34,363 nt of DNA from positions 1 through 34,363 of the forward strand of contig JAMOUS010000102.1 in the NCBI GenBank assembly GCA_027067975.1, given 5' to 3'. Below, piece by piece: positions 27,711 through 32,615 of this stretch. Numbering within the stretch: the first letter of the stretch is position 1; each line of letters begins with the position of its first letter. Origin of the DNA: Bacteroidales bacterium (lineage in GTDB: Bacteria; Bacteroidota; Bacteroidia; Bacteroidales; VadinHA17). The notes beneath the pieces are model-generated. The model saw only the letters and a list, made by a program, of their open reading frames with translations. It was not told the origin of the DNA and did no database searches. The position numbers and the translations under genes are program-made.

Positions 27711-27922
27711 AGGAATATCTTCTGCCGAAGCATCCCACATGGGAAAGTTCCTGCCAAAGGCATCCCCTACTCAAGGCACTTAAAGCACTTTTACAGGACC
27801 CTGACACTTCGCCTTCGGCTTCGGTCAGGGTCAATTCCACCAACGGCTTTCGCTTCAGCCAAAGCTTCGCGAAAGTCGGGTGTCATTGACTTTAGGCACT
27901 TGAAGTACTCCAGGCACTTTAT
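27711..27922. repeat. Convergent intergenic region with modular repeats
   Basis: The 212-bp 3'-3' gap between lpxB and the BNR protein holds no gene. It has two copies of a roughly 28-bp unit on the minus strand (core GGGATGCCTTCGGCAGGAA; about 27720-27745 and 27746-27772) and a 75-bp module at 27819-27893. Short GGCACTT units lie at 27775, 27895 and 27912. The same unit and module recur, inverted, at 32177-32452. Confidence 0.7.
27797..27832. other. Hairpin downstream of lpxB
   Basis: GACCCTGAC (27797-27805) and GTCAGGGTC (27824-27832) are perfect 9-bp inverted repeats around an 18-nt loop that itself contains GCCTTCGGC. It could stop or stabilise transcripts from either side, but no T-run follows on either strand. 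Confidence 0.5.
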
Positions 27923-30277
27923 TTACTCCCACCCCTTCTTCCCGTTCACCTTTTCTCCATCCATCACCCACACGCCGCGGCCGTGGGTGGCGATGACGAT
28001 GATGTTGTCGCGGGGATGGACCACCAGGTCGTGTACGTAGGTGGAGGGCAGGTCGCCCAGCACCTCCCATTTTTTACCCCCATCTTTTGTGACGAACACG
28101 CCGCCGTCGGTGCCTACGTACAAGATGTTCTTGTCGAAGGGGTCTTCGCGGATCACGTTCACCGGCCCCAGGGGGATGTTCGCGGAGATGTCGGTCCAGG
28201 TTTTTCCGAAGTCGGTCGACTTCCAGATGTAGGGGGCGAAGTCGTCATGGCGTTTACCGTTCTGGGTAAGGTAGACGGTGGCGATATCGTATTTGGAAGC
28301 GACGACGCGGGAGATCCACCGTTCTTTGGCAAGGCCGGCGGTGATCTCTGTCCAGTGTTTTCCGTAGTCTTTGGTGACATGGACGCGGCCGTCGTCGGTA
28401 CCTGCATAGAGGAGGCCGGCCTTGATGGGGGACTCGGAGAGGGTGAAGAGGGTGTGATAGGGGATGTCACCCATGCTTTGGGGGTCGTTGTAGGTGAGGT
28501 CGGGGCTGATGCGTTGCCATGTGTCGCCGCGGTCGCGCGACATGAACACATATTGCAATCCCAGGAAGACGATGTCGGGGTTGTGAGGCGAAAGGATGAA
28601 GGGCGCCAGCCACTGGCCTCGCAAGGGTGGTTCGCCGGGATAGACCACGGGATAGATCGACTTGCTTCGTTCGCGCCAGGGCTTGCGCAGGTTGCTGCGG
28701 GTGATGTGGCCGTAGAAGCCGGCCGAATAGACGATGTCGGGATCACGCGGGTCGATGGCGTGGTTGCAGCCCTCATCGCCGGGGGCCCATTCAAACTCCT
28801 GCATGGGGATGCGGTCGCGCCCGCGCCGCAGGTCGACCACCCCGCGGAAGCTGCCGTGGTCTTGTACCGACCCATACACACGGAAGGGCTTGGCCATGTC
28901 ATAAGCGATGTTGAAGAACTGCGACACCGGCAGGTTGTCATAGAAGGTGCGCCAGTGGTGGCCGCCGTCATAGGAGATCGCGATGCCGCCGTCGTTGACG
29001 TTGACCAGGTAATCGCTGTTGTCGGGGTCGATCCACAGGCCGTGGTGGTCGCCATGCATGCCCCGTAACGGCACGAAGGTGTTGCCGCCGTCGTGGGAGA
29101 CGTTCAGGGTCAGCCCCATGGTGTAGACGGTATTCTCATCGTGGGGGTCGACACGAATCTGGCCGAAGACCCAGCCGTAGGTAGCCGAGTGGCGTTCCAT
29201 GTAGCGGCGCGTCTCTTCGGTGAGGCCGCTCACCTGGTGCCACTGTTCACCTTTGTCGTCGCTGCGGTAGACGGTGGCTCCTTTGATGACATTGCTGCGC
29301 GGTCGGCCGTAGGAGTCCAATGCTCCCTCCTCCCATTCCCGGGCGATCTCGTAGTTGTCCACCAGTGCATACACCACATTGGGATTGGCGGGGGTGACAG
29401 CCAGGCCGATGCGGCCGCGGTAACGGGCTTCGGGGAGACCCTTGTTGACCGGCTTCCAGCTCTTCCCCCCGTCGGTGGTCTTGTAGATGCCGCTGTGCCT
29501 GAATCCCGGTTCGATGCGGGGGTCGTTCCAGCGGCGGCGGATGCGCTGCCACATCGCCGCATAGAGCGTGTTGGGGTCGGAAGGGTCCATCACCAGGTCG
29601 ATGGCGCCGGTCATGTCGTCGATGAAAAAGACTTTCTTCCAGGTCTTACCGCCGTCGGTGGTTTTGAAGACGCCCCGTTCCTTGTTGGGGGTCCATTCAT
29701 GGCCGGAAGCGGCCACCCAGACGATGTCGGAGTTGTGGGGGTCGATAAGGATTCGGGCGATGGTGAAAGTGTTGCACAGACCCTTGTAATGCCAGTGTTT
29801 TCCGCCGTCGGTGCTTTTGAAGATACCGGCACCGGCTTGGGAACTGCGGAAGATGTTGGCTTCGCCCGTGCCGGCCCAGATCACCCGGGGGTTGTGCGGG
29901 TCGAGGGCGATGTCGCCGAAGGTGGTGGCCGGCATCGTGTCGAAGAGGGGTTGCCAGGTGACCCCCTCGTTGTTGCTCTTCCACAGGCCGCCGGAGGCCG
30001 TGGCAACGTAGAGCGTATAATGTTTTCCCTTGGGGCGCACCACCTCCACATCGGTGCAGCGGCCGCTGATGTTCTTCGGCCCCAGCAACTGCCAGTGGAG
30101 GTCCCTGTATGGCGAAGCGACCCGCATCTCCTGCAGCCGACGGTACAAGGCCAGCCGCTCTTTGCCGCCGGTCACCGCAACACGCTGGGCGTGGGAGGGT
30201 GCTCCTGCGAAAAGAAAAAAAATCCCCAAAACCAAACCTTTAGGGAAGTGCCGAAAAGGAGGGAAAAGCTTTTTCAT
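27923..30277 (-). CDS. Exported Vps10/BNR-repeat beta-propeller protein
   Basis: A 784-residue protein with a signal peptide ending near PSHAQ (about residue 31), so exported. The rest carries about eleven Asp-box repeats of the form S/T-x-D-x-G-x-x-W, such as SNNEGVTWQ, STDGGKHWH, TTDGGKTWK, SDDKGEQWH, SYDGGHHWR, SRDRGDTWQ and TKDYGKHWT, each followed by a strand with DPHNP or similar. This is the sortilin/Vps10-like propeller seen in many Bacteroidota surface proteins and in GH74-type enzymes. No catalytic residues can be named, so binding and hydrolysis are both open. It is divergent from the sulfatase and shares its control region. Confidence 0.85.
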   Translation of the reverse strand: MKKLFPPFRHFPKGLVLGIFFLFAGAPSHAQRVAVTGGKERLALYRRLQEMRVASPYRDLHWQLLGPKNISGRCTDVEVVRPKGKHYTLYVATASGGLWKSNNEGVTWQPLFDTMPATTFGDIALDPHNPRVIWAGTGEANIFRSSQAGAGIFKSTDGGKHWHYKGLCNTFTIARILIDPHNSDIVWVAASGHEWTPNKERGVFKTTDGGKTWKKVFFIDDMTGAIDLVMDPSDPNTLYAAMWQRIRRRWNDPRIEPGFRHSGIYKTTDGGKSWKPVNKGLPEARYRGRIGLAVTPANPNVVYALVDNYEIAREWEEGALDSYGRPRSNVIKGATVYRSDDKGEQWHQVSGLTEETRRYMERHSATYGWVFGQIRVDPHDENTVYTMGLTLNVSHDGGNTFVPLRGMHGDHHGLWIDPDNSDYLVNVNDGGIAISYDGGHHWRTFYDNLPVSQFFNIAYDMAKPFRVYGSVQDHGSFRGVVDLRRGRDRIPMQEFEWAPGDEGCNHAIDPRDPDIVYSAGFYGHITRSNLRKPWRERSKSIYPVVYPGEPPLRGQWLAPFILSPHNPDIVFLGLQYVFMSRDRGDTWQRISPDLTYNDPQSMGDIPYHTLFTLSESPIKAGLLYAGTDDGRVHVTKDYGKHWTEITAGLAKERWISRVVASKYDIATVYLTQNGKRHDDFAPYIWKSTDFGKTWTDISANIPLGPVNVIREDPFDKNILYVGTDGGVFVTKDGGKKWEVLGDLPSTYVHDLVVHPRDNIIVIATHGRGVWVMDGEKVNGKKGWE

Positions 30278-30301
30278 ATGAAAAGATCATTTTTCTTCGG
30301 G

Positions 30302-30339
30302 AAAATTAGGAAAATAATCTCACCTTTTCCCTAATTTTG
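30302..30339. promoter_or_regulatory. Palindromic divergent promoter with two opposed -7 boxes
   Basis: AAAATTAGGAAAA (30302-30314) and TTTTCCCTAATTTT (30325-30338) are 13-bp inverted repeats with a one-base bulge. Each arm contains a -7 box: TAATTTTG (30332-30339) on the plus strand toward the sulfatase, and TAATTTTC (30302-30309 region) on the minus strand toward the BNR protein. The arrangement suggests a shared switch or joint control of both genes. Confidence 0.45.
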
Positions 30340-30354
30340 GTACTCAATCCGGCC

Positions 30355-30400
30355 ACGTAGGCACTAAACTACGTAGTCGTCTACGTAGTACAATACGTAG
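30355..30400. repeat. Four ACGTAG repeats in the sulfatase leader
   Basis: ACGTAG occurs at 30355, 30371, 30383 and 30395 (spacing 16, 12, 12 bp). Three copies sit in palindromic TACGTA, two in the longer CTACGTAG. They lie downstream of the plus-strand -7 box and upstream of the sulfatase ribosome-binding site. They look like stacked operator sites, or an RNA structure in the leader. Confidence 0.6.
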
Positions 30401-30438
30401 GTGGCGAAATAAATAATGTTAACTAACAGGGAGTTGTC

Positions 30439-32010
30439 ATGAATACTAGAAAGATCTACTGTCGAACTGCTGTAAGATTGCTGGTCGTTTTCCTGCTGCT
30501 GGGAGGAGGGGTCCTCTTGTCGTGCAGGGGGAAAGGGGAGGAGAAGATGCTCCCCAATGTGGTGTACATTCTGGCCGATGACTTGGGCTATGGCGATGTG
30601 TCGGCGCTAAACGAGCATGCGGCGTGGAAGACGGTGCACATGGACCGTCTGGCGTCGCAGGGAATGGTCTTCACCGACGCCCACTCGGAATCGGCCGTCT
30701 GTACCCCCACGCGTTACGGCATCCTCACGGGACGTTACTCATGGCGCTCGCGCCTGAAAAGAGGAGTGTTGGGAGGCAGCTCCCGCCCGCTCATCGAGAG
30801 AGAGCGCATGACCGTCGCCACACTCCTGAAAAAACATGGTTATGAAACGGCTGTCATCGGAAAGTGGCACCTGGGACTGGGATGGCAGATGGCCGGCGAG
30901 AAAAAGGACAGCATCGACTTCACCCGCCCGCTCACCGACACGCCCAACGATCATGGCTTCGACTATTCCTATATCATCCCCGCCTCGCTCGATATGGCAC
31001 CTTATGTGTATGTCGAGAACGATCATGTCACGGCCATTCCCGACCATATTACGGAGAACCGTAAAAAATACAGTTGGTGGCGAAGGGGCTGGACGGCACC
31101 CGACTTCATCCATGAAGATGTTTTGCCACACATGACGTGCCGGGCGGTGGCTTTCATCCGTCGTCATGTGCAGGAGCGGAAGGAGCAACCCTTTTTCCTT
31201 TACTTTGCCCTTACGGCACCGCATACTCCGATCCTGCCTACACCGGAGTTCCAGGGGCGCAGCGGCACCAATCCTTACGGTGACTTTGTTTTGGAGGTCG
31301 ATTCGATGATCGGGCAGATGATGCAGGCGGTGCACGACCTGGGCATTGAGAAGAACACGATCTTCATCGTCACCAGCGACAATGGCTGTTCGCCGCAGGC
31401 CGACTATGCCGAGCTGGCCAAGTATGGGCACAACCCCAGTTATCTCTTCCGCGGCACCAAGTCGGACATCTGGGAGGGCGGTCATCGCATCCCGCTGATC
31501 GTAAGGTGGCCGGCGGTGGTGTCTGCCGGCAGCCGCTGCGATGCGACGGTATGCCTCAACGACCTCATGGCCACCATGGCCGCCATCGTAGGTGACACCC
31601 TCCCGCCCAATGCGGGTGAGGACAGTTACACCATGCTACCCCTGCTAAGGGGGGAGAAAGGACCGATAAGATCTTCCGTGATCAACCACTCCATCGACGG
31701 AAGCTTCGCACTGCGTCAGGGACCCTGGAAGCTTGAGATGTGCAAGGGATCGGGGGGCTGGAGCCTGCCCCGCCGCGTTGCCGACACCATGGACCTGCCC
31801 CCGTTGCAACTCTATAACCTCGACGAGGATATCTCCGAAGCTCACAATGTACAAGACCGCTATCCCGAACGGGTGAAGGCAATGGAGGAGGAACTGCGTC
31901 GCCAGATCCTCCGCGGCCGTACCACCCCCGGCCCCGCACAACCCCAGGTGACCCCCGTAAAATGGCCGGGCTTGTGGTGGAAGGAAAACTGGGATATTTC
32001 GAGAAAGTGA
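30439..32010 (+). CDS. Type I sulfatase, lipoprotein
   Basis: A 523-residue protein. The N-terminus is a lipoprotein signal (LLVVFLLLGGGVLLSC; Cys29 would be acylated), so it is likely held on the outer membrane. Sulfatase motifs: NVVYILADDLGYGD (metal-binding Asp47, Asp48), CTPTRYGILTGR, where Cys88 in C-x-P-x-R should be turned to formylglycine, AVIGKWHLG, and FIVTSDNGCSP. It should remove sulfate from a glycan or small ester; the substrate is not predictable. It needs a formylglycine-generating or radical-SAM maturase encoded elsewhere. Divergent from the BNR protein and convergent, over 605 bp, with a putative glycoside hydrolase. A GGGAG ribosome-binding site precedes ATG 30439. Confidence 0.94.
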   Translation: MNTRKIYCRTAVRLLVVFLLLGGGVLLSCRGKGEEKMLPNVVYILADDLGYGDVSALNEHAAWKTVHMDRLASQGMVFTDAHSESAVCTPTRYGILTGRYSWRSRLKRGVLGGSSRPLIERERMTVATLLKKHGYETAVIGKWHLGLGWQMAGEKKDSIDFTRPLTDTPNDHGFDYSYIIPASLDMAPYVYVENDHVTAIPDHITENRKKYSWWRRGWTAPDFIHEDVLPHMTCRAVAFIRRHVQERKEQPFFLYFALTAPHTPILPTPEFQGRSGTNPYGDFVLEVDSMIGQMMQAVHDLGIEKNTIFIVTSDNGCSPQADYAELAKYGHNPSYLFRGTKSDIWEGGHRIPLIVRWPAVVSAGSRCDATVCLNDLMATMAAIVGDTLPPNAGEDSYTMLPLLRGEKGPIRSSVINHSIDGSFALRQGPWKLEMCKGSGGWSLPRRVADTMDLPPLQLYNLDEDISEAHNVQDRYPERVKAMEEELRRQILRGRTTPGPAQPQVTPVKWPGLWWKENWDISRK

Positions 32011-32070
32011 TCCGCCTACGCTAAAGCTACGGCGGACACGATAAAGCGATGATGCGATAAGGAGAGAACG

Positions 32071-32132
32071 CCCCGGAGGGGCAGCATGGAAAGGGAGCAA
32101 TGGCAAGAGAATTTCATTCTTTCCCTCCGGGG
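32071..32132. repeat. 10-bp perfect inverted repeat
   Basis: CCCCGGAGGG at 32071-32080 and CCCTCCGGGG at 32123-32132 are exact inverted copies, 42 bp apart. Each arm is also nearly self-complementary. Probably part of a dispersed repeat family rather than a terminator, since no T-run follows. Confidence 0.6.
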
Positions 32133-32176
32133 ATGTATTATGCCGATAACCAAATTCAATGTTTGAATATTGGAAA

Positions 32177-32282
32177 ATTTCCCGAAGGGATACCTCCGGC
32201 AGGGATTTGAAATTTGGGATTTATTTTCCCATAGGGATGCCTTCGGCAGGAATTTTCCCAGGGGGATGCCTCTGACAGGAAT
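32177..32282. repeat. Three degenerate copies of a 28-bp unit
   Basis: Copies at about 32177-32206, 32225-32254 and 32253-32282 share the pattern TTTCCC..AGGGATGCCT then CGGCAGGAATT. The second and third are directly adjacent. Two further copies lie in the opposite orientation at 27720-27772. Confidence 0.65.
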
Positions 32283-32615
32283 TTCCAAAAAACTCCATAC
32301 TCGATACTGGGAACTCGGAACTATGCCGTTAAGGCAAAAGGCAACAGCTTTTAGTATCGAGTTCCGAGTAGGGAGTGTCAAGTCAGTGACACCCGGCTTT
32401 CGCGAGCCGGAGGCGATGCGAAAGGCGCTGGTGGAACTGACCCTGACCGGAACGGAGTGGAGCGTCGGGATTGGGAGTTTCATGTTCCAGGTTACAAGTT
32501 CGAATTTCATATTCAATAGTGAGCAACGAATTACCCCACTTTTGCGTTAATCCTTTTGCCTTCCTTGTCCGCCGGAGCCTCTTCGATCAACGTAGCTTTC
32601 TTGACTACCGTAGCT

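Follow-up and report, generated by a model that had tools for sequence, protein, structure and literature searches.

An inverted pair of two-hairpin repeats in a Bacteroidales genome and its likeness to non-autonomous IS200/IS605-type elements

Results

Two similar sequences lie in convergent gaps around a BNR-sulfatase block

The DNA analysed here (the window) is 34,363 nucleotides long and is contig C102 of a 2.79-Mb, 311-contig Bacteroidales MAG that is 93% complete. Two similar sequences are present in inverted orientation. Copy B lies between LpxB and a BNR-sortilin protein, and copy A between a sulfatase and a minus-strand gene. Both gaps are convergent, as the preliminary description had noted (3'-3' gaps). 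The look-alike that it reported, at 27819-27893 and 32380-32452, is real. Two inverted arm pairs were found in a repeat search: 27815-27856/32415-32456 (83% identity) and 27867-27892/32380-32405 (92% identity). The shared stretch stands but its length of 75 bp does not, since the true units are longer. The features are as follows.

32382-32473, plus strand: copy A, whole two-hairpin unit as modelled (covariance model R2, 96.9 bits; BLAST family)
32382-32442, plus strand: copy A, hairpin H1 (pair counts, folding, model alignment)
32443-32469, plus strand: copy A, hairpin H2, closing stem partly broken (model alignment; DNA fold)
27796-27890, minus strand: copy B, whole two-hairpin unit as modelled (R2, 88.7 bits; BLAST place 27822-27892)
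27829-27890, minus strand: copy B, hairpin H1 (model alignment; DNA fold)
27800-27828, minus strand: copy B, hairpin H2 (model alignment; DNA fold)

Aligned over their full lengths, the units are identical at 71 of 95 columns and the longest exact run is 12 nt. With one copy as the BLAST query and the genome as target, the other was recovered at E 8e-14. This value, together with model scores of 97 and 89 bits, means that the similarity is not due to chance.

The copies do bracket the BNR-sulfatase block, as first described. This arrangement looks incidental; sequence adjoining the BNR gene in congeners has no copy of the element (in G003 the gene end alone could be read). A second, different inverted repeat (27735-27766 and 32234-32265, 88%) adjoins the same two copies. 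It is of a GGGATGCCTTCGGCAGGAA-like type that flanks both, at 27735-27766 (minus strand) and, in three units beside the right copy, at 32176-32280 (plus strand); the type also occurs at a few other loci of the genome. Between the divergently oriented BNR and sulfatase genes is a 25-nt inverted repeat (30352-30405, 76%, 4-nt spacer), perhaps an operator.

The pair belongs to a large family in the genome

BLAST with one copy identified 65 places in the MAG and our first covariance model identified 78, so the window pair is two of many. In this genome the element is a repeat of ~92 nt with two hairpins, and family units span ~75-95 nt. The copies examined are mainly intergenic. Many form head-to-tail arrays with a spacing of ~100-190 nt, and some arose through local head-to-tail duplication. 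Many others are close to contig ends, as expected where repeats break assemblies. One locus, L075, was probably picked up falsely by the first model.

Orientation with respect to neighbouring genes is not fixed (same/same 20, antisense 14, divergent 12, convergent 11). A gene-linked cis-regulator was rejected for this reason. Several copies begin a few nt past a stop codon or terminator.

Tandem repeats of 7, 8 or 9 nt, with many different units, are abundant in the intergenic DNA around the copies (L002, L003, L004, L017, L025 and other loci of the window's genome, G000, and L064-L091). Of 21 own copies, 17 have short tandem repeats nearby, as do 16 of 21 from relatives; these counts were made without a background control. 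The repeats recall the heptamer arrays known from Cyanobacteria, Beggiatoaceae and Bacteroidetes (PMC4679880).

The fold is conserved and covaries

We derived the family fold from 35 copies in the genome. It consists of P1 (6 bp), tandem GA/GA, P2 (4 bp), a 2-nt bulge, P3 (10 bp), a GA/GAA loop, P4 (3 bp) and hairpin H2. H1 of copy A has the same order from P1 to P4. At copy B, an extended H2 stem competes with P1 for a central GAC, and the DNA fold has H2 extended and P1 open. Both window copies, folded as DNA, have z about -4. The TGA/GAA motifs are invariant and the consensus start is RTYARTGA.

In the own-genome alignment of 35 copies, 94.4% of cells are paired and 17 of 31 pairs have changed on both sides. 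No shuffle reached the observed covariation score, and slid controls gave at most 6 pairs. For a second alignment, 21 copies from other species, themselves found with the covariance model, were aligned by MAFFT without it. Pairing holds in 93.6% of its cells, double changes occur in 17 of 23 pairs, and the covariation score is 0.51 (0.19 shuffled, at most 0.10 for slid controls). A third set, of 81 distinct copies, was picked with a sequence pattern in which P1 and P2 are fixed and P3 is free; it has double changes at all 10 P3 pairs. G-T wobbles outnumber A-C (93:30, 30:3 and 29:16). Hence, one strand folds, either as RNA or as single-stranded DNA.

The proposal of a dispersed non-coding element is supported by the many copies and the covarying fold. 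BLASTN and a covariance model had been suggested as checks, and a lack of further copies and of covariation as grounds for dismissal. Copies proved abundant and the fold covaries in the own genome and, independently, in relatives; hence both points count against dismissal.

The element is patchy across Bacteroidota

In congeners, a BLAST search for close DNA relatives found no copy; copies there are reached by the covariance model alone. Of 40 genomes searched with the model, 15 have the element, the window's own among them. In a survey of the order, with 14 candidates scored per genome, 52 of 295 genomes bear it, often as many similar copies. Matches in a pattern scan of named genomes were nearly all from Bacteroidota: Bacteroidales MAGs, Prolixibacteraceae including isolates of Maribellus and Draconibacterium, and Flavobacteriaceae (Flavivirga, Aquimarina). 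Occurrence is patchy, with lineage-specific expansions. The other matches were in a 'Marinimicrobia' MAG and single Gottesmanbacteria and Patescibacteria contigs. The MAG labelled Marinimicrobia CG1_02_48_14 has eight nearly identical copies of the long form described below (L229, L235, L245, L250, L275, L279, L297 and L299), which reflect either transfer between phyla or a mislabelled bin.

The pattern scan had no match in viral contigs and BLAST had none in plasmids, so phage or plasmid cargo was rejected. No Rfam family matches at its gathering score, and a permissive E-value gave nothing credible; rows for rox1 and Dictyoglomi-1 were far under their gathering scores and mostly outside the element. 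A riboswitch or other known Rfam RNA was rejected accordingly.

Long and short forms

Similar copies with unrelated flanks fall into two forms. The short form is H1-H2 alone, occurs without IS200-like ends, and was found in the window's genome, G309, Flavivirga and others. The long form, of ~174-180 nt, was found in G201, G181, Maribellus, CG1_02_48_14 and others. It starts behind a TTAA(AT)-like sequence, with H1-H2 as its left part, ending ..GGGATCT. An IS200-like left hairpin follows (e.g. TTCCCCGCCCCTTGGGGCG). The right end is a CCCCG..CGGGG hairpin and then ..TTCATT. Palindromes are thus present near both ends (H1/H2 on the left, CCCCG..CGGGG on the right), and there is no transposase gene inside.

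Ends of this kind are associated with Y1 transposase genes elsewhere. In G201, such a right end lies directly behind a Y1_Tnp gene. In G241, five copies of an IS200-type element, with unrelated flanks, read TTTAAT|CTCTTTGGGT...GGGGAGATTCATT|. The right end and target type of the long form match the Y1 elements of G241 and G201, which are other genomes than Maribellus. The window's MAG, at 93% completeness, has no Y1_Tnp match. Own-genome copies examined have no IS-like right end behind them, and the short form there has no ends in common with a Y1 element of the same genome. Across the order, 49 of 52 element-bearing genomes have Y1_Tnp, compared with 154 of the other 243 (Fisher P 2e-6), an association that may reflect genome size or mobile-element load. 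All Y1 genes of G181, a genome rich in long forms, resemble the class without IS ends.

The long form inserts without target duplication

In Maribellus luteus and Maribellus sp. CM-23, repeated matches cover query 865-1038, which is exactly the long form and nothing more. When the flanks of four Maribellus copies were joined, each join aligned without interruption to the sister species (91-95% identity). Thus, all four long-form sites tested are empty there, with no target duplication and one base ambiguous. The empty sites read TTAAAT|AAAAC, TTAAAT|CCTC, TAAAAT|TTTT and TAAAGT|AGTT; at filled sites the element stands behind ..AAAT. They were read by eye from the sequences, automatic alignment having misplaced some gaps. 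Three further sites are occupied in both species. The long form in Maribellus is a recent exact insertion (or excision) without duplication.

This evidence concerns the long form and the window holds the short form. For the latter, we examined copies inside 7-8-nt tandem repeats. Among 24 copies tested, removal of the copy restores the phase of the repeat at L002, L003, L006, L064 and L089, and the phase is ambiguous in others; end and target coincide over 2-3 nt. The case for mobility is good for the long form; for the short form in the window's genome, mobility is plausible.

Proposed mechanism

On balance, we consider it probable that the window pair are copies of a small non-autonomous, PATE-like element of IS200/IS605 type, in which it is the fold of one strand that is conserved. 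Single-strand transposition of the IS200/IS605 kind fits because the target is short and not duplicated, the hairpins are strand-specific and the ends are those of Y1 elements. A Y1 (HUH) transposase acting in trans would recognise the folded strand, cut it at both ends and paste it behind a matching target. We infer that this is also what moves the short form in the window's genome.

In IS200/IS605 elements, guides 5' of the palindromes choose the cleavage sites by pairing, and a changed guide retargets the element (PMC8266576). The bases directly 5' of H2 could be such a guide, pairing alternately with the left end and with the bases after H2. The trinucleotide at this position is also the 3' end of P1 and covaries with the left trinucleotide. 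Its last base also covaries with the base that immediately follows H2 (123 of 142 Watson-Crick, 86 expected from shuffling). Kinship among the copies weakens these statistics. Because the first two left-end bases come from the target at Maribellus sites, the trinucleotide may serve as the guide at both ends. A bolder and rather doubtful extension is that the module by itself, at ~75-95 nt, makes up a full single-strand transposable unit. One central guide, common to both abutting hairpins, would pair alternately with the left and right cleavage sites, and guide changes would retarget the unit between lineages (TTAAAT, AAGTT, AGT). Were this so, the module would be among the smallest self-guiding mobile DNAs.

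Alternative explanations

The preliminary description raised the possibility that the 4.5 kb between the copies inverts. The copies are indeed in inverted orientation, as a local inverted duplication acting as a switch for the BNR-sulfatase block would have them. However, their longest identical run is 12 nt, and no inverted arrangement of 27893-32380 was seen. Identical runs of up to 12 nt are poor substrates for homologous recombination. Chance similarity or a purely local duplication is contradicted by the BLAST and covariance-model counts, the pair being two of ~78 places. We give this explanation, by chance or by switch, almost no credence.

A REP-like element moved by a Bacteroidota TnpA_REP (RAYT subclass 2.6), with the IS200-linked long form secondary, is unlikely. 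The short form does exist without IS200-like ends, and the available text of PMC6006769 describes subclass 2.6 genes in Bacteroidetes as flanked by atypical secondary structures that also occur elsewhere in the genome. However, 27 Y1 genes from nine element-bearing genomes include few of YxxNP class 2, and none of the 27 loci has a copy within 1.5 kb. Nor was a class-2 Y1 gene found in the loci around copies, and a RAYT-flanking REP was rejected on these grounds. Strong covariation, the invariant motifs and starts just past stop codons or terminators would also suit a structured RNA (a 3'-end element, terminator or regulator) kept for its function in transcripts, spread by recombination and not transposable. 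The absence of a fixed gene relation in the orientation counts, the patchy lineage-specific expansions and the exact empty sites of the long form argue against it, and we regard it as quite unlikely. Passive satellite DNA, in which replication slippage and unequal recombination amplify hairpin units in tandem-repeat-rich intergenic DNA without a transposase, would account for the head-to-tail arrays, the nearby tandem repeats (uncontrolled for background) and a MAG without a Y1 match. It is improbable given the many genomes with single copies, exact ends and unrelated flanks, and a structure conserved across families.

Relation to known elements

The closest known kind is the PATEs, palindrome-associated transposable elements of Haloquadratum walsbyi (PMC3119063). 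Like the long form of the present element, they are non-coding, with palindromes near the ends, no target duplication and ends like those of an IS605-type transposon. Both also show insertions that are strain-specific, with matching empty sites, and both have other repeats inserted into them. The Bacteroidota element differs in its additional ~80-nt two-hairpin module, conserved tandem GA motifs and covariation across many families, and in a short form without recognisable IS ends. With IS200/IS605 (TnpA Y1, class 1.1), exemplified by the autonomous element of G241, the long form has in common its right end, an A/T-rich left target and the lack of duplication. Unlike these elements it has no transposase gene, and the H1-H2 module stands between the target and the IS-like left hairpin. 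That module is absent from the autonomous copies examined, and no autonomous copy combining H1-H2 with a Y1 gene was found in the loci examined.

REP/REPIN sequences with RAYTs (PMC6006769, PMC3733652) are likewise irregular-stemmed hairpins scattered between genes, with copies in many genomes of one phylum. The present element is longer, has two abutting hairpins and is not beside Y1 genes. GTAG or CGTC tetranucleotides at the hairpin foot are absent from the element alignments. The structures described at RAYT subclass 2.6 genes (PMC6006769) could be related to H1-H2.

The family accounts for widespread intergenic repeats of Bacteroidota that are missing from Rfam, supplies a covariance model and exact ends for them, and would tie them to the IS200-type transposase lineage. 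Its cultured hosts, Maribellus and Draconibacterium, would allow tests of single-strand transposition and guide-directed targeting.

Sequences of other kinds adjoin the element at some loci. A hairpin of CCTGCC..GGCAGG type is inserted at the P1/H2 junction in several genomes (L084, L089, L091, L167, L195, L201 and L379). At L071, L074 and L085 (about 1206-1590), from two relatives of the window's family, an attC-like site, GCTAAACGGTTGGCATATGGCC...CGGCGTTGTTG, seems by eye to enclose the element.
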